Assembly: GCA_036426205.1 (NCBI GenBank)
Contig: CM071570.1
Coordinates: forward strand, 57,332,926-57,396,925
From: Ascaphus truei
Taxonomy: Eukaryota > Chordata > Amphibia > Anura > Ascaphidae
DNA: 64,000 nt
Direction of reading: 5' to 3'
Positions 23,513 to 34,908 of the stretch are shown here, piece after piece. Both the position numbers and the translations under genes were made by a program. The notes beneath the pieces are model-generated. The model was given only the letters and a program-made list of their open reading frames with translations, was not told where the DNA came from and did not search any database. The stretch's first letter is position 1. Each line of letters starts with the position of its first letter.

Positions 23513-25152
23513 TTAGGTCCGGAAATAATTGGACACTGATACAGTTTTTGTTTTTTCGCTGGGACAAAATAAATCCAAGTTACAGTTAAATAATGAATAT
23601 GGGCTAAAAGTGCAGTCTATCAGCTTTAATTTGAGGGTATTCACATACAAATTGGAGGAAGGGTTTAGGAATTACATCTCTTTAATATGTAGCCCCCTCT
23701 TTTTCAAGGGACCAAAATTAATTGGACAATTGACTCAAAAGCTGTTTCATGGACAGGTGTGGGCGATTCCTTCGTTATTTCATCATCAATTAAGCAGGTA
23801 ATTGGTCTGGAGTTGATTCCAGGTTTCGCATTCGCATTTTGAAGCTGTTGCTGTGAACCCACAACATGCGGTCAAAGGAGCTCTCAATGCAAGTGAAACA
23901 GGGCATCCTTAGGCTGCAAAAAAAAAAAGAACATCCATCAGGGAGATAGCAGGAACATTAGGAGTGGCCAAATCAACAGTTTGGTACATTCTGAGAAAAA
24001 AAGAACGCACTGGATAGCTCTGCAACAAAAAAAAGCCTGGACGTCCATGGAAGACAACAGTGGTGGATGATCGTATGATCCTTTCCATGGTAAAGAAAAA
24101 CCCCTTCACTACATCCAGACAAGTGAAGAACACTCCAGGAGGTAGGCATATCATTATCCAAGTATACCATAAAGAGAAGACTTCACGAGAGCAAATACAG
24201 AGGGTTCACCACAAGGTGCAAACATTCATAAGCCTCAAGAATAGAAAGGCCAGATAAGACTTTGCCAAACAATATCTAAAAAAGCCAGCCCAGTTCTGGA
24301 ATAGCATTCTTTGGACAGATGAAACTAAGATCAACCTGTACCAGAATGATGGGAAGAAAAAAGTATGGAGAAGGCTTGGAACGGCTCATCATCTGAAGCA
24401 TACCACATCATCTGTAAAACACGGTGGAGGCAGTGTGATGGCATGGGCATGCATGGCTTACAATGGCACTTGGTCACTAGTGTTTATTGATGATGTGACA
24501 GAAGACAGAAGCAGCTGGATGAATTCTGAAGTGTATAGGGATATATTGTCTGCTCAGATTCAGCCAAATTCAGCGAAGTTGATTGGACGGCGCTTCACTT
24601 TACAGATGGACAATGACCCAAAACACACTGCAAAAGCAACCCAGGAGTTTTTTAAGGCAAAGAAATGGCATATTCTACAATGGCCGAGTCAATTAACTGA
24701 TCTCAACCTTGATCGAGCATGCATTTCACTTGCTGAAGACAAAACTTAAGGCAGAATGACCCACGAACAAACAACAACTGAAGACAGCTGCAGTAAAGAC
24801 CAGGCAAAGCATCACAAAGGAGGAAACCCAGCGTTTGGTGATGTCCATGCGTTCCAGACTTCAAGCAGTCATTGCCTGCAAAGGATTCTCAACAAAGTAT
24901 TAAAAATGAACATTTTATTTATGATTGTGTTAATTTGTCCAATTACATTTGAGCCCCTGAAATAAGGGGACTGTGTATGAAAATGATTGCAATTCCTAAA
25001 CGTTTCATACAATATTTTTGTTCAACCCCTTGAATTAAAGCTGAAAGTCTGCACTTCTATTGCATCTCGGTTGTTTCATTTCAAATCCATTGTGGTGGCG
25101 CACAGAGCCAAAATTATGAAAATTGTGTCAGTGTCCAATTATTTCCGGACCT
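23513..25152 (+). mobile_element. Tc1-like DNA transposon (dead)
   Basis: About 1.64 kb. The ends are inverted repeats of at least 26 bp, starting ttaggtccggaaataattgg at the left and ending with its reverse complement at 25127-25152. Tc1-type elements duplicate a TA, and the surrounding DNA is TA-rich. The length is normal for the superfamily. Inside is a broken transposase. Confidence 0.9.
23864..24900 (+). pseudogene. Tc1-like transposase pseudogene
   Basis: It opens MRSKELSMQVKQGILRL, the usual start of vertebrate Tc1 transposases, with a helix-turn-helix (REIAGTLGVAKSTVWYIL) interrupted by a stop soon after. A KPGRPWKTTVVDD block and the second HTH follow in shifted frames. Then come SLKNRKAR, the first catalytic Asp in WTDETKINLY (24312-24341), and GGGSVMAWACM. 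The second Asp lies in DNDPKHT (24609-24629). The third position is lost: the expected SPDLNPIE reads LTDLNLDR, so the catalytic Glu is missing. Several stops and frameshifts. The element could only be mobilised in trans. Confidence 0.9.
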
Positions 25153-25159
25153 AACTGTA

Positions 25160-25440
25160 TATATTTTTTTTTTTAACGTATGGTGGGTGAAAAAGGCGAG
25201 AGAAAACCTCCACCGTTAGCATATAGTCAATAAAGAATATCACTTGTGAGCACATTCACATGTCTTAGACAGGACTGCAACCCTTTCTTTCAACCATTAT
25301 CACCTAGCATACAGTGTTTCCACTGCAGCAAGGGATTCTGGGAAATGACATGCAAATGAGCACACACTGCGTCACCTTTTGCCTGGAATATCCATTCACA
25401 CGGAGCCCATTTAAGCAGATGCATCGCCGTTCACACAGCT
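25160..25440. other. No recognisable feature
   Basis: Unassigned sequence between the Tc1 element and the hammerhead structure. Confidence 0.3.
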
Positions 25441-25532: not shown

Positions 25533-25690
25533 CTAGTCCCATGCTGTGCTTAAAATCTGTGTGAACGGCGATGGGGTCGGTGGCGTCATCACGTGAGGGT
25601 GCGTGCATGTGGAGTTCCCTGGCGTTCCAGCAATCCAACAATTTAATAGGTTGCAATTCTTCGCGTGCCCGCCAGATGGCAGATATTCAT

Positions 25691-26060
25691 GAACTGTAAT
25701 GCGCATGCGCTTCAGTACAGAACACTGGACTGGCAGTGGCCCAGCGCCGGCGCCAGCTGAATGGGAAATTCTATGGTGAGTATTGTTGCCGTATTATTTT
25801 CTGTGTTTTTTTTATTTTGACAATACAGTATCAATATTGGCGCGATTCAAAAGTCAAGCGATTCTCCTGTAAGCAATATCATTGGCTGAGCGGCTTCTCC
25901 AGTACTGTACTGCAGATACTGAACAATTGGTGGAACGCTAGGCGCATGCGCATTGGAACCTTCTTGAAACGCATATGCATGTCATTACATCGACGGTAGG
26001 CGCATGCGCATGTGAACAGGAGACGCCCCCCTGAGAAAATTATTGGCGGGACTGGCTGGG
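25691..26060. repeat. Left subterminal region with GCGCATGCGC words
   Basis: Three gcgcatgcgc palindromes lie near 25702, 25942 and 26001 within 300 bp. Similar gcgcatg/catgcgcag words recur in the right flank at 33.4-34.2 kb. This resembles subterminal transposase- or accessory-protein binding repeats. The role is inferred. Confidence 0.4.
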
Positions 26061-26855
26061 AACGTGTTTAGGGGACTGACCATTACAGTAAAACTTTTCT
26101 TTTTGTGTTTCCTAAGAAAAGAAAATGGCTAATGGAGGGATTTCGATGGATAATATCGCTTTGTGTAACAATGCCTGCACATTGCTGAATCGGATTTAAA
26201 AACCCACGTACCAGAGTCTACAATTTAGTGGTCGTTGTTATTGATTAGGATAGAATACTGTACCTGAAGAAACAGTATGCTGAGGTTTTCCGGCCGTACA
26301 GTATACAATACTTTTTTTATATATAGTATACTGTGTAATAAACCCGAAAAAATAAAAACTATGCATTTATTCTACATGTATTACAGTACTGTACATACAG
26401 TATGTGTCTTCTATTTTTTTTTAATACTCTTGTACTGAGCATGCCTACAGTATACAGTACAGTATGCCTGGACAGTAGTGTACATTCTAGAAACACTGTA
26501 TTTTGTTACAGTAGCAAAGGAGCCAATGGAACAATGTAAAACAAATCAACATGTTCTTTTATTGGTGGAGTAAGTACAAAAACATTTATTTACAAATACT
26601 GTACAATGTAGAAACATTTTAAGTGCACAGCAATTCAAAACATCAACAAGTGTATGGTTTACTGCTACAGTAGTGAAAACATTTAGATATAGAAAGTAAA
26701 AAACATTTACAGTCAGTCAGTATGGTTTACAGTCACATGTTTTAAAAACAAATTCTTTATTCATAAAATATACAAAACGCAACATCTCCTTTATTAAAGA
26801 ACGGCAAGTCAAAACTTATACTGTTGGATGGTGTGCAAAACAGTCTGCATCAGTA
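26061..26855. other. AT-rich, many tactgtac words, no gene
   Basis: Non-coding flank of the large transposon with many palindromic acagtactgta words. It would be the 3' flank of the minus-strand gene. Confidence 0.35.
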
Positions 26856-26935
26856 CAGTCCTCGAGGGCAGCAAACAGGCCCGGTTTTAAGGGTAACCTT
26901 TGAAAACCATGCCTGTTTGCGGCCCTCAGGGACTG
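26856..26935. mobile_element. 80-bp palindromic MITE
   Basis: The ends are inverted repeats: cagtcctcgagggcagcaaa at the left, and at the right the reverse complement of cagtccctgagggccgcaaa. It is almost entirely terminal repeat. A second copy is at 27249-27327. Confidence 0.65.
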
Positions 26936-27248
26936 GAATTGTGCAAGCCCTGTGTGTGTGTGTACAGCAAGTTAAAACATTTCTGTATAAATGCAAGTTA
27001 AAACTTACAAACATTTTTTTATTAATACAAGTTAAAACACACAACATCTCCTTTATTTAAATACAGCAGGTCAAAACATGTACAGTACCGTACAGTACAG
27101 TGCAGCACAACAGTATGGTCTTACCTGTGATTAAAAAAAATTTTTATTCATAAAATATGTATACAAAACGCAACATCTCCTTTATTAAAGAAACATATAC
27201 AGTACAGTGGGATGGTGTGCAAAACAGTCAGTCAGGCCTGCACCACTA

Positions 27249-27327
27249 CAGTCCTCGAGGGCAGCAAACAGGCCCAGTTTTCAGGACAACCTTGAAAACC
27301 GGGTCTGTTTGCGGCCCTCCTGGAGTG
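27249..27327. mobile_element. 80-bp palindromic MITE, second copy
   Basis: Same family as 26856-26935, carried within the second copy of the duplicated unit, so it was probably duplicated rather than newly inserted. Confidence 0.6.
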
Positions 27328-27484
27328 GAATTGTGCAGGTCCTGTGTGTGTGTACAGCAAGTTAAAACATTTCTGTATAAATACAAGTTAAAACACACAA
27401 CAACACCTCCTTTATTTAAGTACAGCAGGTGAAAACATGTACAGTACAGTTCAGCACAACAGTATGGTCTTACAGTACCCGTGA

Positions 27485-28830
27485 TTAAACCAGAAAGTCC
27501 ACCAGATTGTCCGTCCATGGCCGATTCTTTGCATGGCGCAAACCGCCATTAATGCAGTCTCGGACGCCTTTCATTACAGGATCTGTAATTGTATAAAAGC
27601 GCCACATTTCATCCAGAATGGTCTTTCTGAAATTGGCAGGAAGCGCCTTTTTTTACGCGATTTCCTTCGTAGTTCACTCTGAAGGCCCAGTCGCAGTACA
27701 ACGAGTAGGGCACATGGTGCTTAAAAAGTAACAAGGCATACTTGTGGGGTGCACCAGCACTCATCACCCTATACTTCTCCCTGAGCACCGGTGGCAGATT
27801 GCACAGGCTGATGTCGGGCAACGTATCGATGAGAGCGAACGTAGGTCTTCTGCGAGTGGGTGTGCTTGAGGCGACGGGCGATGGTAGGTTGTCTGGGAGG
27901 AAGCTTTCCTCCGGTCTTGGTCGCCGTGTTGTCTCCTGGCGTGGTCTTGACGGGGTTGTCATGTCCTCCTCAATGGCATACATGTACACTAAATCTTCTG
28001 GTTGAGGGGGTGCGCTTGGTGATGGAAGGGTGTCGATGCTCCCATTCATCACATCCATGCCACCCACCTGCTCCGCGCTGGGGAAACAGGGGCATGAACA
28101 CCGAGCAAATGATGTATACCCGCTATGTCAGCCTCTATTTTCTCCATCCGTCGATCCATCCGTTGATCCATATGTTGCATCCGTTGATCCATATCTAGCA
28201 TCCGTTGATCCATATGTAGAATCCGTTGCTCCACATTTATCATGGTCTCCAGAAGCAGATCTATCTTTGCCAGCACAATAGAGTTCCCGGGGATATCCAC
28301 ACTTATCCCATTCAGCATCCGGTCTAACGAGCTGCTTCTTGTGCATGGTGTGTGGACATCTGGGTGGATGGGTGCAACGGAGGATGAGATGGGAGTTCCA
28401 TGGAAAGAAGCGGCAGCGTCGTCGAAGAAGGGTGGAGGAGGTGACCTTTGGATTTCCAGCCGAGAAGCAGAGTCGTCTAAGAGCAAAGGAGAAAGGGACC
28501 CGTGGATTTCAGAGGCACCAGCGGCAGCGTCATCGGATAGAACTGGAGAATATGGCCTGTGTGTTTCTGGGAAGGCGGCGGCAGCGTCGAGGACTAGAGG
28601 TGGAGAAGATGGGCTGAAGATTTCCGGGACAGCGGTGGCAGAGTCGTCGAAGCGTATGCAAGGAAGTGGTCTGCGGGTTCGATGGGTTGGCTCCCATTTG
28701 TTTTGCGTCGAGAGTACATCACCGTATTTCTTCTTGACATAATAATGCTGACGTCTATGAAAACCCTTAGCCTTTGGGGTCAGCAGAAGGTTTTCTTTAT
28801 TGGCCTTAGCATTTTGCTTTGGCGTTGGCG
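27485..28830 (-). pseudogene. BEN-like, coiled-coil accessory protein of the transposon
   Basis: Three linked parts run along the minus strand. (1) 28830-28350: a Lys-rich segment, then about five degenerate repeats of roughly 20 residues built on DDAAA/DDSAS followed by EI and SP words (for example DDAAAGASEIHGSLSPLLL). (2) 28300-28130: a coiled coil with heptads HMDQRMLDMDQRMQHMDQRM. (3) 28060-27485: a linker, then a C-terminal domain with YALLLFKHHVPYSLYCDWAF, ALPANFRKTILDEMWRFY and VMKGVRDCINGGLRHAK, ending at a TAA. The last pattern fits the BEN DNA/protein-interaction fold (LLxxLF..., LDPxKLxxI..., R.AIN..R). Two frame changes occur: one near 28070-28130 and one at a 7-T run (27648-27654). 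Upstream, the frame is cut by a solo LTR. Nuclear DNA binding is inferred. Confidence 0.55.
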
Positions 28831-29438
28831 TGTGTTAGGACCAATATGTCAGGCCAGAATCTGCACTCATGTTAAGCTTCCATTTTGTCTGCTCATAACT
28901 AGTTAAGATTCTGTAGTCAGCCTTTTGCTGAAATATAATTCCTAACGCACTCAGTGTCTGCTAAATTATATTTCTTTTCTTCCTGCTAAGGATATTGCTA
29001 AGATACTTTTGTGTTGTCAATTTCCTGATGTTTTAGTTAGAATATAATAGAATGGTTCTCTGCAAGAAGCAAAATAGTGTAATATAGTTGCTAAAGATTC
29101 AAGGTCTCTTTTGATAACAGACAATGAATAAGCTATGTAGTCAGACATTGATGTATTGTAAAAGACACGTCCCAAAAGTCACGCCACTAATATGTCCTGC
29201 CCCTAGATCACGCCTCTAATCAAAGCTACGCCCAAGACACACCTAGGATACGCCTATGTTACACCTACGATACTCCTATGTTACGCCTCTAACCAATATC
29301 TTTTTTTTTGTATAAAAGTCATTACCCTATGAGTAATAAATTGAGACAAAGGATTTGAAACCTGGCATGCGTTACATTTCATTTCGTTCGTCTTCCAGGC
29401 CTGATAAAGTTCAACAAAGATCGAAGATAACAATTGCA
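28831..29438. repeat. Solo LTR inserted in the BEN-like gene
   Basis: 608 bp beginning TGTGTTAGG and ending CAATTGCA. Internal features read in order on the plus strand: a tandem tacgcctatg/acacctacga-type region (29190-29290), tgtataaaag (29310) and aataaa (29335). Flanking 5-mers are tggcg (28826-28830) and gggcg (29439-29443), a target duplication with one change. The minus-strand gene continues on both sides. Confidence 0.65.
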
Positions 29439-29443
29439 GGGCG

Positions 29444-29690
29444 TGGAAGCTTCTCTGAGGGAGTCTGCTGCAAACGGTGCAGATTGTGTATCCAGTCACA
29501 AGGCTTCAGTTTACCTGGCAGAGGAAATGTTCCTCTCGGTTCTGAAGCCAGGGGAGGAAATAACGGATTTTCCTTCAGAATGGAAACGGCAACCGCCTTT
29601 TGCTTTTTCTGCATGACAGGCACAGCAGAGGCGAGTGGGTTCCTGTGTCCGTAGAATCGGGGTTGATCCATGGAAGCAGATGGCATAATG
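29444..29690 (-). pseudogene. N-terminal part of the BEN-like accessory gene
   Basis: A minus-strand frame starts with an ATG at about 29685 (MPSASMDQPRFYGHRNP). It continues through PVMQKKQKAVAVSIL and SEPRGTFPLPG to SEKLPRP at the LTR boundary. A possible splice donor (ccag|gtaaac) lies at about 29516. The frame does not join directly with the part beyond the LTR, so an intron or a frameshift must separate them. It faces away from the transposase across about 240 bp. Confidence 0.45.
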
Positions 29691-29924
29691 CAGTATCTGG
29701 ACAAGGGCAAGTTCAGATAAAGATCATGGAGTGGTGGGCTATGCAAAGTGTGTAACCTTTTATGCATGGCGGCGAGGTACAGGTATTGAAAGTGGGCGTA
29801 CACTAATGTGAGTCATTACCGTATAAATACACCATCCATTTTGTGGATTCACTGCACATTGAATACACATCGACTAAACATCGAATATACATTCTTGTGT
29901 TTGTATTTCTTTCTACTCGCAGCA
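29690..29924. promoter_or_regulatory. Divergent promoter between the two transposon genes
   Basis: On the plus strand gtataaata (29820) is a TATA box about 105 bp before the transposase ATG. On the minus strand tgcataaaagg (near 29756-29766) is a TATA-like box about 75 bp before the accessory-gene ATG. A polypyrimidine tract ending in cgcag just before the transposase ATG (29905-29922) looks like a splice acceptor, hinting at a non-coding first exon. Confidence 0.5.
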
Positions 29925-31884
29925 ATGGCTGTTAAAAATATTTCTAAGGATCTCAGCATGCGAATTAAGGAGATGTACACGAGCGGACACCGAATTGCTG
30001 CTATCCAACGCTGGTTAGCTACTTCTGGCCTCGTTGTGCCAGCAACCACCGTGAGCTATCATGCACACGGAAAAAACAGAGAACGCAAAAGGGCACCAAG
30101 GGTAACTAAAGCGTAAGTATATTTAAACAACTTAAAAATAAATTTTATATGAAATATTGTACTGTAGATCTACAGTAATGTATGAATTATTTTGGTTATT
30201 TCTGTTATTTTATATTACAACAGTATATATATTTGTATATTTAGATTTATATACTACAGATATCAGTATATATTTTTAGAATTATATTACAACAGTATAT
30301 ATATTTTGTATATTTAGTTTATATTAAACAGTATATATATTCTGTATATTTATAATTATATTACAACTAGATATATGTATTTTGTATAGTTATCGATTAC
30401 AACAGTATAATATTTGTATATTTAGATTTATATTACAACAGTATACAGTATATATTCTGTATATTTATAATTATATTACAACAGTATATATATTTTGTAT
30501 ATTTATTTTTATATTACAACAGTATACAGTATATATTTTTTAGATTTATATTACAACAGTATATATATATTGTATATTTAGATTTATATTACAACAGTAT
30601 ATATATTCTGTATATTTATAATTATATTACAAAAGTATATATATTTTGTATATTTATATTACAACAGTATATATATTTTGTATATTGCTGCATATTGATA
30701 CTGTAGAACTGTGCTGTAATACTGTAATGCTGTGCTTGTGGCCTACTTCACTGAAACTTACCGGTTTGTTTTTCTTTACATTGTAGGGAGACAACTCTTC
30801 TGGTGAACAAAATAAGTGAGGAGAATGATGAGAAGAGTGCATTAAGGGTCAAATACACTCTGCAGAAAAATCACAATCTCACTGTATTTGAGACCAGCAT
30901 AAAGAAGATGAGACGCAGCATTGGATGGAAATATGGACGTGTGAGATTAGTACTGGACAGTACAGGAGGTAAAAGTGTTGTTTAGGAAACTGTACTGTAC
31001 CGCTAAAATTATTTATTCCTTGTCATTACAGAGCGTACCCCATGATAAGGGACGTAAACAAAATAAAAAGAGTGGTCCAGGCCCAGGCATGGATCGACAG
31101 TGGGGAAACTTTCCAGGATTTCATCTTCACTGATGAGTCTACTGTTTCGCTGGAGAGATTTGCAACCTTTGCATTCCACAAAAAAGGTCGCATATCTATG
31201 AAGCCACGGCCAAAACACCCCGTGAAGCTGCATGTGTGGGGTGTCATCTCTAGGCGTGGACCAAGATGCATTGTCATCTTTGAAGGTAAAATATATAAAA
31301 TATAATGTAGCCTTATGCACTGTACTTTACTAGTGTATCCTTACTTTATGCATTGTACTGTACTATTGTGCAGTTTTTTGAGCACTTTTCTTTTCTTATT
31401 ATAGGAATCATGAATAAAGCTTTCTTCCAAGACAAAATTTTCCCTGAGATAGTACAATACATCACACGCGAGTTCCCGGATGGTCACCGTTTCTACCAGG
31501 ACAACGATCCGAAGCACACCGCGTCAACAGCGCATATCCTTGAGCGCGGTATCAACTAGGTGAAGATGCCAGCGGAGTAAGTGCGGTAACCGTGTTTCAT
31601 TTTTCCCCCACATTTTTTACTGTGTACTGTATCTCTTAAACTAATTGTCCTTTTTTTCCAATGACAGATCGCCAGACTTCAATCTAATCGAAATGGTCTG
31701 GCATCAGCTGAAGGACCATATCCGGAAAGTGGCGAAACCCTCCAAAAAGGACGAGTTGTTGAAAGGCATAATGAGTTTTTGGAATGATGTACTCACCGTT
31801 GAACGCTGCAATAAATATATAGACCATATTGCAACTGTGTTGCCCATTGTGATCGCGCGTAATGGGCAAGCATCAGGAAAGTAG
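29925..31884 (+). pseudogene. Tc1/mariner-type transposase with four introns
   Basis: Exons by splice signals: 29925-30112 (donor gtaagt), 30787-about 30940, 31032-31285 (donor gtaaaa), 31405-31576 (donor gtaagt), 31668-31884 (TAG stop). Exon 1 encodes an HTH (SMRIKEMYTSGHRIAAIQRW). Exon 2 encodes the second DNA-binding part ending GWKYGR. Exon 3 carries the first catalytic Asp in FTDESTVSLE (31132) and HVWGVISRRG. Exon 4 carries DNDPKHT (second Asp). Exon 5 carries SPDFNLIEMVW with the catalytic Glu (31690). Phases agree at junctions 1, 3 and 4; junction 2 is off by one base. An in-frame TAG (31557) breaks exon 4, where relatives have Trp. All three acidic residues survive. The family is the invertebrate-like Tc1 group with an SPDxNxIE motif and a C-terminal VIxxNGxAxG end. 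Confidence 0.8.
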
Positions 31885-32700
31885 TACTGTACTGTAGTAT
31901 TGTAAGTACAGTATGATACAGGTAAGTATGGCACATATTTTTTCTTTCCTAATAGTCAGAGTATACAGTAGGTTACAGTACATAGTATTTAACAGTAGTC
32001 AGAGTATACAGTAGTTCCAGTATAGACTAGTTTGACAGTACTACAGCAACTGCCTACTAACTGCTCAATTTTTTTCTTTCCAGAGAAAGCAGCACTTGCC
32101 ATCTACAGTAGTACTACGCAACACACAATGCCATAATACAGTACGCACATAACTGCACTAATTTTTTGTTTTCTTGTTATTTCAGGAAAAAAGGGTGCCC
32201 TGGGGGGAGGTGGGGTGTTGTGTCCAGTCTAATCTGTTTGTACAGTCAAATGTACATTATATAAACAGCAGTAATGATGTACACAAAACCTCTCCTCTCT
32301 CAATGAACTACTGTACTGTACACAGAATGAGGAACAAGATAAAGACGGAAAAAATAATATTAGTATATATATATATATATATATTATACATTACAATATA
32401 TATTATTAAATAATATTCTTATAAATGTGCATTATTCATGTTTCTCCATGTTTTACAAATGTTTTCTAAATGTTTATCCAATTTCAATCTGCCAGAAGAA
32501 ATTAATTAAGACTGCATTATGTATTACTCATTATTATTTTTATATTTGTATCTTTTGGTTCCTGATAAAATAAAATACATTTTTATTTACATTCCTGCTA
32601 ATCATAATCATTGACAACACCCCCCCACACACCCACAATACACCAATGAATAAGAATGAATGACAAAACAACATTAATCAGTTAATGGTTTTTTTAACTC
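31885..32700. other. 3' flank of the transposase gene
   Basis: AT-rich, with a (TA)n run at 32360-32402. No aataaa stands out beyond AT-rich runs (aataaaataca near 32567). No other gene seen. Confidence 0.4.
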
Positions 32701-32739
32701 TCAATTCTCACAATGCTGTGCAAATCAGATTTACATTTC

Positions 32740-34260
32740 AAATTCGAGAAGGGATTTTCCAAAGCGTTACCGTAACCAAAGCCTCAAAGGGTTGGGGGGG
32801 GGGTTGGGTGAGTCATGTGCAGTAATCAGCTAGCTCCCATCTCAAAGAGGATTACACGCAGGCACAATGAGGCTTTGTAGCTCGGCTATAGACGGATTAA
32901 GAACACAATGACTAACTTCAGAAAATTAACGACTCTGTGGAGGGGGGTTGGGTGACTCATGCACAATAAGCAGCAAGCTCCCATCTCAAAGAGGATTAGA
33001 GTACACGCCGGCGCAGTGAGGCGATTGACACTCGGCTAGGGACGGATTAAAAATACAATGACTAACTTCAGAAAATTAATGACTCTGTGGAGGTGTCTGT
33101 CGATAAGAGTTTGTGTGTGCGTGGGGGAGGGATGAAGGATTAGTTGTGCAGCAGTTCAAAGAAATTACATAGAGTAGAGTACAGTACAGTAATTTCAAAA
33201 GGCAGTTCATCATAATACTGTAATTTGATCCCTACACCCCCAAATACAGAACATAAAAAGAACACAAATCAACAATGTGCAGGCAAACGCACAGCTTAAA
33301 TATCGTAATATCAAGATTGTTTTTGCAGGCTTGTGGATAAAATAACAGTTAAAAAATAACTAAAAATTTTTTTTTGGGGGGCACTCAAGCAAGCAGTGGT
33401 GGGTGAAGTTACAGGCGCATGAGCAGTAATCAACTAGCTCCCATCCGAAAGAGGATTACACAGGCGCATAGAGAGGTGATGCTCTATGCAAATAAAATTC
33501 GAGAAGGGATTTTCCAAAGCGTTACCATAAACAAATCCTCAAAGCTCCCATCTCAAAGAGGATTAAACGCAGGCGCAGTGAGGCTTTGAAGGTCGGCTAT
33601 GGACGGATTAACAACACAATGGCAAGATTCCGAAAATGACCGACTCTGTGGAGAGGGGGGGGGGGGTGGGTGAGTCATGCGCAGTAAGCAGCTAGCTCCC
33701 ATCTCAAAAAGGATTACACACAGGCGCAGTGAGGCTTTGTAGCTCGGCTATGGACGGATTAAGAACACAATGTCAAGATTCAGAAAATTAACGACTCCGT
33801 GGAATTTCAAATCCTTGAGCTAGCCTTGTGTGTGTTCATGGGGGAGGGGGCTACAGGGTACAGCTGCATGAAGTTCAAAGATAAAGACATATTTTAATTT
33901 CAAAAGACAGTTCATCATAATAATACACCCCCAAATTCAGTACGTACAGTAAAAAGCACATAAATCAACCATGTGCAGTCAAACGCACAGGGTCGCAGTC
34001 AAAAGCTACAGCACAGATTGAATATCATAATACAGTAAGATGGTTTTTGCAGGCTTGTGGAGAAAAAAAAATTACAATAAAATTTTTTTTTTTACATTTT
34101 TTTTGGTCACTCACTCAAGCAATCAAGCAAGCAGTGGGGGGCGAAGTAACAGGTGCATGCGTAGTAATCACCTGCTGTCAAGCAGGAATGTGATTGAAAC
34201 CAGACACACGTTCAAAGGAATGGTGTGGGAGAGATGTACTGCATTGTAGAGAAGATAAGA
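32740..34260. repeat. Right subterminal tandem repeat array
   Basis: Units of about 140-150 bp share gctagctcccatctcaaagaggattacac, ggctttgtagctcggctatgg, ggattaagaacacaatg and gaaaattaacgactctgtgg. Full or near-full units start near 32791, 32941, 33540 and 33660, with a partial one at 33395. A longer interspersed unit (acacccccaaat ... gtttttgcaggcttgtgg) occurs at 33230-33345 and 33925-34060, giving a higher-order pattern. Confidence 0.8.
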
Positions 34261-34344
34261 AGTTGAAATACCCTGCAGTGCAGTTAATTATCCTGAGCGA
34301 GGGGAGATCTGTATATGCCGAAATGTGACACTGTTACAGTACTA

Positions 34345-34517
34345 TACACGCCTATGCGCTTTCAACAATTTTCAAATGAGACATACTGTACAGCAGCACA
34401 GCACTGCAAATGCATGTATTCTTTAAATATGGAAATTTACAATTACTGCGCGCGCACACACAGACTGTGTACTGATGTAGGTTGAACCGCAAAGGTATTA
34501 GACTTCCAAGACAACAG
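34345..34517. repeat. 173-bp block duplicated across an assembly gap (copy 1)
   Basis: Identical by eye to 34540-34712. It is best explained as the same DNA placed on both sides of an unresolved gap. Confidence 0.85.
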
Positions 34518-34539
34518 NNNNNNNNNNNNNNNNNNNNNN
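34518..34539. other. Assembly gap (22 N)
   Basis: A run of 22 N flanked by identical 173-bp sequences. Confidence 0.98.
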
Positions 34540-34709
34540 TACACGCCTATGCGCTTTCAACAATTTTCAAATGAGACATACTGTACAGCAGCACAGCACT
34601 GCAAATGCATGTATTCTTTAAATATGGAAATTTACAATTACTGCGCGCGCACACACAGACTGTGTACTGATGTAGGTTGAACCGCAAAGGTATTAGACTT
34701 CCAAGACAA

Positions 34710-34908
34710 CAGCTCGCAAACGGCCCCCTAGGTTTTTACACGGCATTGCAGTATTGCAGACGGCGAGAATAAAATGCTAAAATCACGAGCGCTAAAATAA
34801 CGCAATTCACTCCGGGCGAAACAAACAGAAAACCGCACCTAACCGGGATTATCTGAGAGCCGCGGATCTAGCCGACTTAGACTCAGGTCGGCCGCCACTG
34901 TATACAGT
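34710..34908. repeat. Right terminal sequence of the large transposon
   Basis: About 195 bp beginning acagctcgcaaacggccccc and ending cggccgccactgtatacag. A homologous segment lies at 62310-62515, with tacacggcattgcagtattgca and aataacgcaat.ca.tccgg shared. Both end in tgtata. It is interpreted as the terminal region of one transposon family. Confidence 0.55.

Follow-up and report, generated by a model that had tools for sequence, protein, structure and literature searches.

A 64,000-nucleotide stretch of the genome of the tailed frog Ascaphus truei (NCBI GenBank assembly GCA_036426205.1, contig CM071570.1, positions 57,332,926 to 57,396,925 of the forward strand; hereafter, the window) contains a decayed, incomplete copy of a larger transposon. 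We conclude that this element is, in all likelihood, a cut-and-paste transposon of the Tc1/mariner type that carries three genes. From left to right these are a forkhead gene on the plus strand, a gene of no recognised family on the minus strand (here, the second gene) and a five-exon transposase gene with DD32E catalytic spacing on the plus strand. A preliminary description of the window had proposed a single transposon in which a transposase and a divergently transcribed partner lie between shared, TA-flanked termini; the recurrence of the two genes, the ends of the copies and an empty insertion site bear this out, and it is the third gene that had been missed. In the copies read, transposase and second gene did not fall into separate repeat families, and no copy of the transposase ended before the second gene.

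Gene order and recurrence

The remnant in the window is collinear with other copies in the same genome (Table 1), one of which, L040, has lost its right end, its match to the window stopping at 34880. Sequence identity among the window, L040, L041 and L044, calculated per 150 columns, is mostly 0.85–0.99 in coding and non-coding columns alike, apart from a few blocks at 0.79–0.84; such evenness is expected of a single unit that moved whole. The forkhead gene is mostly missing from the window because 690–722 bp, present in L039, L041 and L042, have been deleted at 25717/25719, and this loss is the reason that the gene escaped the preliminary description. In those three copies, this sequence encodes most of a forkhead protein of about 200 residues that matches the Pfam Forkhead profile (E = 3.1e-15 and 2.7e-14; 56.5 and 53.5 bits, compared with a curated cut-off of 27).

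The left part was fetched for 15 other copies, and 12 of these have the forkhead gene. Among copies chosen by their transposase, 11 of 13 have it (L039, L040, L041, L042, L045, L047, L048, L050, L051, L052 and L053) and two do not (L046 and L049); of the two chosen by their second gene, L044 has it and L043 does not. Nine of the 13 (L045–L053) had been picked because the second gene had already been seen beside the transposase. Three loci picked by their forkhead gene (L084–L086) are left out of the 12 of 15; L086 has all three genes, and the fetched stretches of L084 and L085 contain no transposase exon.

Searches of the whole genome place this arrangement in a broader context. The lists obtained for the forkhead gene, second gene, right end and transposase each consist of the best-scoring copies for one query: the best 150 of 18,432 candidates for the forkhead gene (90–96% identical over nearly the full length), the best 150 of 12,717 for the second gene (74–100% identical, the window included) and the best 40 of 2692 for the right end (a 190-bp query). 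Among the listed matches, forkhead and second genes form 17 pairs (involving 16 forkhead genes) at distances of up to 10 kb, where 0.16 would be expected, and all 17 pairs lie on opposite strands, 1.9–4.7 kb apart. Forkhead genes and right ends likewise form nine pairs within 15 kb (0.064 expected), and in all nine the orientation is the same and the end lies 2.6–12.1 kb downstream.

Ends, target site and size

The element begins with TA/CAG...GCGG and finishes with ...CCGCCACTG/TA (the slash marks the junction). Aligning copies located the left end, which has been lost from the window: other copies extend about 170–185 bp past position 25641, to TA/CAGCCGCGG. Ten left ends were read and TA precedes each of them; five begin with CAGCCGCGG (L039, L042, L047, L048 and L049), one with CAGCTGCGG (L045) and four with CTGCTGC[GA]GC (L053, L058, L085 and L086). 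The TA-flanked terminus that had been placed at 34.9 kb is indeed present, as ...GCCGCCACTG followed by TA at 34901–34902, and the same right end, with variants, occurs in the window, L041, L042, L009 and L057. The terminal inverted repeats are short and imperfect (CAGCCGCGGCC on the left and CAGTGGCGGCC on the right, equal at 9 of 11 positions).

All four copies for which both ends were read (L042, L039/L009, L041/L058 and the L018 copy, L049/L057) have TA on both sides. Their sizes are exemplified by L042, at 8581 bp, and the L018 copy, at 9070 bp (C2224:56257–65326). The flanks of the L018 copy resemble, by eye, the reading frame of a long interspersed nuclear element. When these flanks were joined and used as a query, 40 of 153 candidates were scored; 38 are other places that match across the junction, and the remaining 2 are the flanks of the L018 copy itself. 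One half of the filled site matches bases 1–120 of the joined sequence and the other matches bases 119–240, so that the TA is counted twice, and a single TA stands at the junction in each of the eight empty sites read of the 38, with a 2-bp difference just to the left.

One further terminus, TA/CAGTGGCGGCCG, lies inside a copy (L042:6361), where about 360 bp more are present than in the window at 31880–31886; a gap in L016 is similar. The extra sequence is probably a short element, with related ends, that is nested in this copy.

A DD32E transposase with introns

The five exons of the plus-strand DDE transposase recognised in the preliminary description join into a 329-residue protein that matches Pfam DDE_3 (E = 1.5e-16). 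GT/AG prevails at the intron borders; the comparison covered 29–33 loci for each of seven of the eight borders, but only three for the first donor. The window copy is dead, as it has an in-frame TAG in exon 4 and an altered donor at intron 2 (AG/ATTAGT, compared with AG/GTTAGTACTG in 24 of 30 loci). Across the family, the transposase is under purifying selection: the ratio of nonsynonymous to synonymous substitution rates (dN/dS) is 0.34 over 34 loci, whereas shifted frames give 1.25 and 1.18. In the frog's own genome, the best 121 of 32,279 candidates from a protein search gave 397 transposase matches.

Fifty relatives (of 672 candidates) were recovered from various animals and other sources in a protein search, with annotations such as Tc1-like and Tcb2. 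The catalytic motif was readable in 37, of which 9 share the DD32E spacing of the element and 27 have DD34E; the single DD75E looks like a misreading. In a phylogenetic tree, the element and the six DD32E relatives that were long enough form one clade (14 rows, 100/100 support), which holds proteins of Xenopus laevis, gar and zebrafish, and in which three fish members have DD34E. The element has neither the DD34E spacing of the classical Tc1 family nor its layout of a single intronless gene in about 1.3 kb, having instead three genes and four transposase introns. Nor does it have the transposase and TWA target of Harbinger elements, as its transposase is of the DDE_3 type and its target is TA. 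The place of the family is within Tc1/mariner, from whose usual form its three genes and its introns are a departure.

The forkhead and second proteins

The best solved relatives of the element's forkhead protein are FOXP3 and FOXL2. In forkhead proteins, an Asn and a His of the recognition helix contact DNA bases. The helix of the element reads TWKRAIRKRL, compared with the usual GWQNSIRHNL, and the canonical NSIRHN is absent. One truncated element copy contains a forkhead fragment of another type (HNLSMNNCFIR; L085:5038–5238, in reverse complement numbering).

A divergent minus-strand gene about 240 bp upstream of the transposase had been claimed for the window, and its nearest fitting ATG, at 29686, lies 239 bp from the start codon of the transposase. 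The second gene is a single open frame, from stop to stop, of 543 codons in L043 and 548 codons in L044; in the window it is broken by two apparent frameshifts and a 748-bp insertion. Protein searches based on shared words, which may miss distant relatives, found relatives of the forkhead protein (5 of 12 candidates) and of the second protein (2 of 7995 scored candidates) in Ascaphus only.

A dispersed heptamer and a possible mode of action

The non-coding parts of the element are rich in repeats near both ends, as the preliminary description had stated, with direct-repeat families on the left and right. They are also rich in the heptamer TACWGTA (TACAGTA or TACTGTA), of which there are 46 occurrences in the 9.26-kb remnant, compared with 39 in the remaining 54.7 kb of the window. 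None of these occurrences lies in the transposase exons, the second open reading frame or the 748-bp insertion of the window; the left region has 19 and the right region 17, compared with 0.7 and 0.6 in shuffled sequences. Six other copies (about 9.5–9.9 kb) contain 30–52 heptamers each, and eight other loci contain 1–3 each. The heptamer resembles the TA/CAGT junction; one of the three element proteins may bind to it, or it may be the product of mere repeat growth.

Taken together, the sequences suggest a mode of action in which the transposase would cut at the TA/CAG ends, while the forkhead protein, and possibly the second protein, would be sequence-specific partners that join the distant ends or control transcription of the element. 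TACWGTA is the best candidate for the binding site of one of these putative partners. Assistance of cut-and-paste transposition by partners that the element itself encodes is likely, and the second gene product may bind the subterminal repeats, as had been proposed.

Alternative explanations

We acknowledge that several results weigh against three genes that act together. The forkhead gene is lacking in 3 of the 15 copies. Between copies, dN/dS is 0.67 for the forkhead domain (1.37 and 0.73 in shifted frames) and 0.76 for the tail (0.81 and 1.50), some of the shifted-frame controls (0.73–0.81) being equally low. In the second gene, three segments have values of 0.74 (0.96 and 0.87), 1.02 (0.99 and 0.76) and 0.75 (0.83 and 0.85), with some controls no higher; within-family selection on these two genes is not proven. 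Consensus forkhead sites are not enriched in the element. Among the listed genome matches, second gene and transposase form only three pairs (0.125 expected), and forkhead gene and transposase form none (0.15 expected), although this absence says little because each list holds the best scores for one query. The weak dN/dS signal and the copies that lack the forkhead gene would also fit a one-gene Tc1-type transposon that once trapped two sequences, the forkhead and second genes then being functionless passengers that were amplified along with it. We consider such an origin unlikely, as some 88 of the 150 forkhead copies in the list are free of stops (a count made by eye, and biased because the list consists of the best scorers), the second gene has retained long open frames and the forkhead domain still matches its Pfam profile despite deep divergence from host FOX proteins. 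The fixed order, orientation and spacing of the genes in many copies, together with common ends that have TA and an empty site, make it extremely improbable that unrelated repeats were merely juxtaposed by chance in the window, even though repeats abound in the region and, at 24.0–25.2 kb, an older relic of the Tc1 type adjoins the element.

A different question is the identity of the second gene, which had been called BEN-like in the preliminary description. Models of its protein, albeit of low confidence (pLDDT, the predicted local distance difference test, of 54 and 61), are all-helical, which, like the order of motifs in an alignment with BEND3-like domains, is in keeping with a true, very divergent BEN-domain protein. 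We regard this identity as doubtful, as neither sequence nor fold tests supported it: the second protein matched no Pfam profile, three C-termini of the second gene had no match to Pfam BEN at E ≤ 10, six places in the genome matched the BEN profile and no listed copy of the second gene was among them, and the hhalign probability was 0.1%. No structure match of the models is a BEN chain, a result that excludes nothing at their low confidence.

Origin of the forkhead gene

To place the forkhead domain of the Tc1-type element, we compared it with others from the genome. In a midpoint-rooted tree of 34 forkhead domains, in which some branches are long, a branch with 100/100 support separates the element family (11 domains), a family with a 225-codon forkhead gene (3 domains) and three additional copies, L080–L082, from 17 host FOX-like domains. 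The least diverged of L080–L082 is L082, which is closest to FOXL2 among solved structures. As the core of the recognition helix, L082 has NSIRHN, the 225-codon family NSIRRT and the Tc1-type family RAIRKR.

The 225-codon gene is part of a second repeat family (L059, L060, L061, L062 and L095), in which it is preceded by a repeat-rich frame that resembles a coiled coil and by a gene of the Myb/SANT-like type (PF13873, E = 1.4e-5; the stretch is 95% identical between L062 and L095). The only stretch that L059–L061 have in common is that around the 225-codon gene. Downstream of this gene, L059 contains, within L059:3435–4954, a Harbinger-like transposase fragment (by eye, with no Pfam match) and a long frame that resembles a reverse transcriptase and ends in a GIY-YIG-like part (also by eye); both fall outside the stretch that L059 has in common with L060 and L061.

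We tentatively suggest that transposons of the tailed frog may have captured a FOX gene and made of it a dedicated protein with altered recognition, which possibly spread between at least two kinds of element, the Tc1 type and one that has a Myb/SANT gene. The Tc1-type element would then move with a multi-protein, sequence-specific apparatus that reads the dispersed TACWGTA.

Structure of the window copy

The features of the window copy are collected in Table 1. Position 28832 joins 29581 directly in 18 loci, which represent 16 distinct copies, L029/L042 and L030/L041 each being a pair. As the sequence is contiguous in these 16 copies, the 748-bp piece between the two positions is ruled out as an intron; as a solo long terminal repeat, it offers only a possible 2-bp TG duplication without clear ends. 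The relic that adjoins the left side of the element (24018–25170) is of the ordinary Tc1 type and has a frameshifted transposase. Towards the right end, two 173-bp copies (within 34345–34712) are 100% identical and lie on either side of a run of 22 N bases (34518–34539), and are probably an assembly duplication.

Table 1. Features of the transposon copy, in window coordinates.
Feature	Position	Strand	Remarks
Transposon remnant	25641–34900	+	Collinear with L041 and L042 (25641–34902), L040 (25719–34880) and L044 (25719–34690)
Deletion junction	25717–25719		690–722 bp present here in L039, L041 and L042
Forkhead gene remnant, last 19 codons	25720–25776	+	100% identical to the C-terminus in other copies
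Left non-coding region, direct repeats	26753–27445		Repeat families D10, D14 and D20
Second gene	27488–29686	−	Window pieces 29671–29570, 28831–28079, 28124–27621 and 27652–27488
Insertion, 748 bp	28833–29580		Private to the window copy among copies read
Divergent start region	29687–29924		Common to second gene and transposase; starts at 29686 (−) and 29925 (+)
Transposase exon 1	29925–30112	+	Start codon; helix-turn-helix judged by eye
Transposase exon 2	30787–30945	+	Donor mutated in the window copy
Transposase exon 3	31032–31285	+	First catalytic Asp (TDES); DDE_3
Transposase exon 4	31405–31576	+	Second catalytic Asp; in-frame TAG 31557–31559; DD32E spacing
Transposase exon 5	31668–31884	+	Catalytic Glu; stop TAG 31882–31884
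Right subterminal direct repeats	32794–33803		Units of about 150 bp; repeat families D6, D9 and D11
Right terminus	34876–34900	−	Inward CAGTGGCGGCCGACCTGAGTCTAAG; same end, with variants, in L041, L042, L009 and L057
TA at right end	34901–34902		Target duplication, right side; TA in copies, duplication shown for the L018 copy

Comparison with known transposons

When minimal transposons with a single gene are described, Tc1/mariner elements are the usual example, and an abundant vertebrate family with three genes, a FOX domain and four introns departs from that picture. It would represent a natural case in which a transposon captured a transcription factor, the opposite of the more familiar domestication of transposases, and it could be used to test what makes partner DNA-binding proteins necessary to a transposon. 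A literature search limited to open-licence PMC papers found neither the term 'DD32E' nor a recognisable report of a forkhead-carrying transposon. In the parts of the sources that were available, DD32E is not among the Tc1/mariner families that PMC7386202 names, and a 2025 survey with an Ascaphus assembly (PMC12822217) makes no mention of such an element.

The nearest known transposases are the DD32E proteins of the same clade from Xenopus laevis (LOC121396371), Lepisosteus oculatus and Danio rerio (LOC326903), which are 52, 46 and 40% identical, respectively, to that of the element. These vertebrate relatives were compared as proteins; relatives of the forkhead and second genes came from Ascaphus only, in the word-limited search. 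Classical Tc1 elements have, in the portion of PMC7325037 available, one open reading frame in about 1300 bp, terminal inverted repeats of about 30 bp and mostly DD34E transposases. The Ascaphus element resembles them in its TA target, CAG-type ends and DDE_3 transposase, and differs in its three genes, its introns and its length of 8.6–9.1 kb. Three open reading frames are described for the Tc1/mariner-related TBE and Tec elements of ciliates, of which TBE has a zinc-finger/kinase reading frame (available parts of PMC4724952 and PMC7325037). Those elements differ in their hosts, their DD34E transposases and their other accessory genes, among which these parts of the sources name no forkhead. 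The closest analogue in possible working mode is PIF/Harbinger, in which, according to the available part of PMC4482050, a transposase with a separate gene for a DNA-binding protein is the rule; the partner there is of the Myb/SANT type rather than forkhead, and the transposase superfamily and the target sites are different from those of the Ascaphus element.

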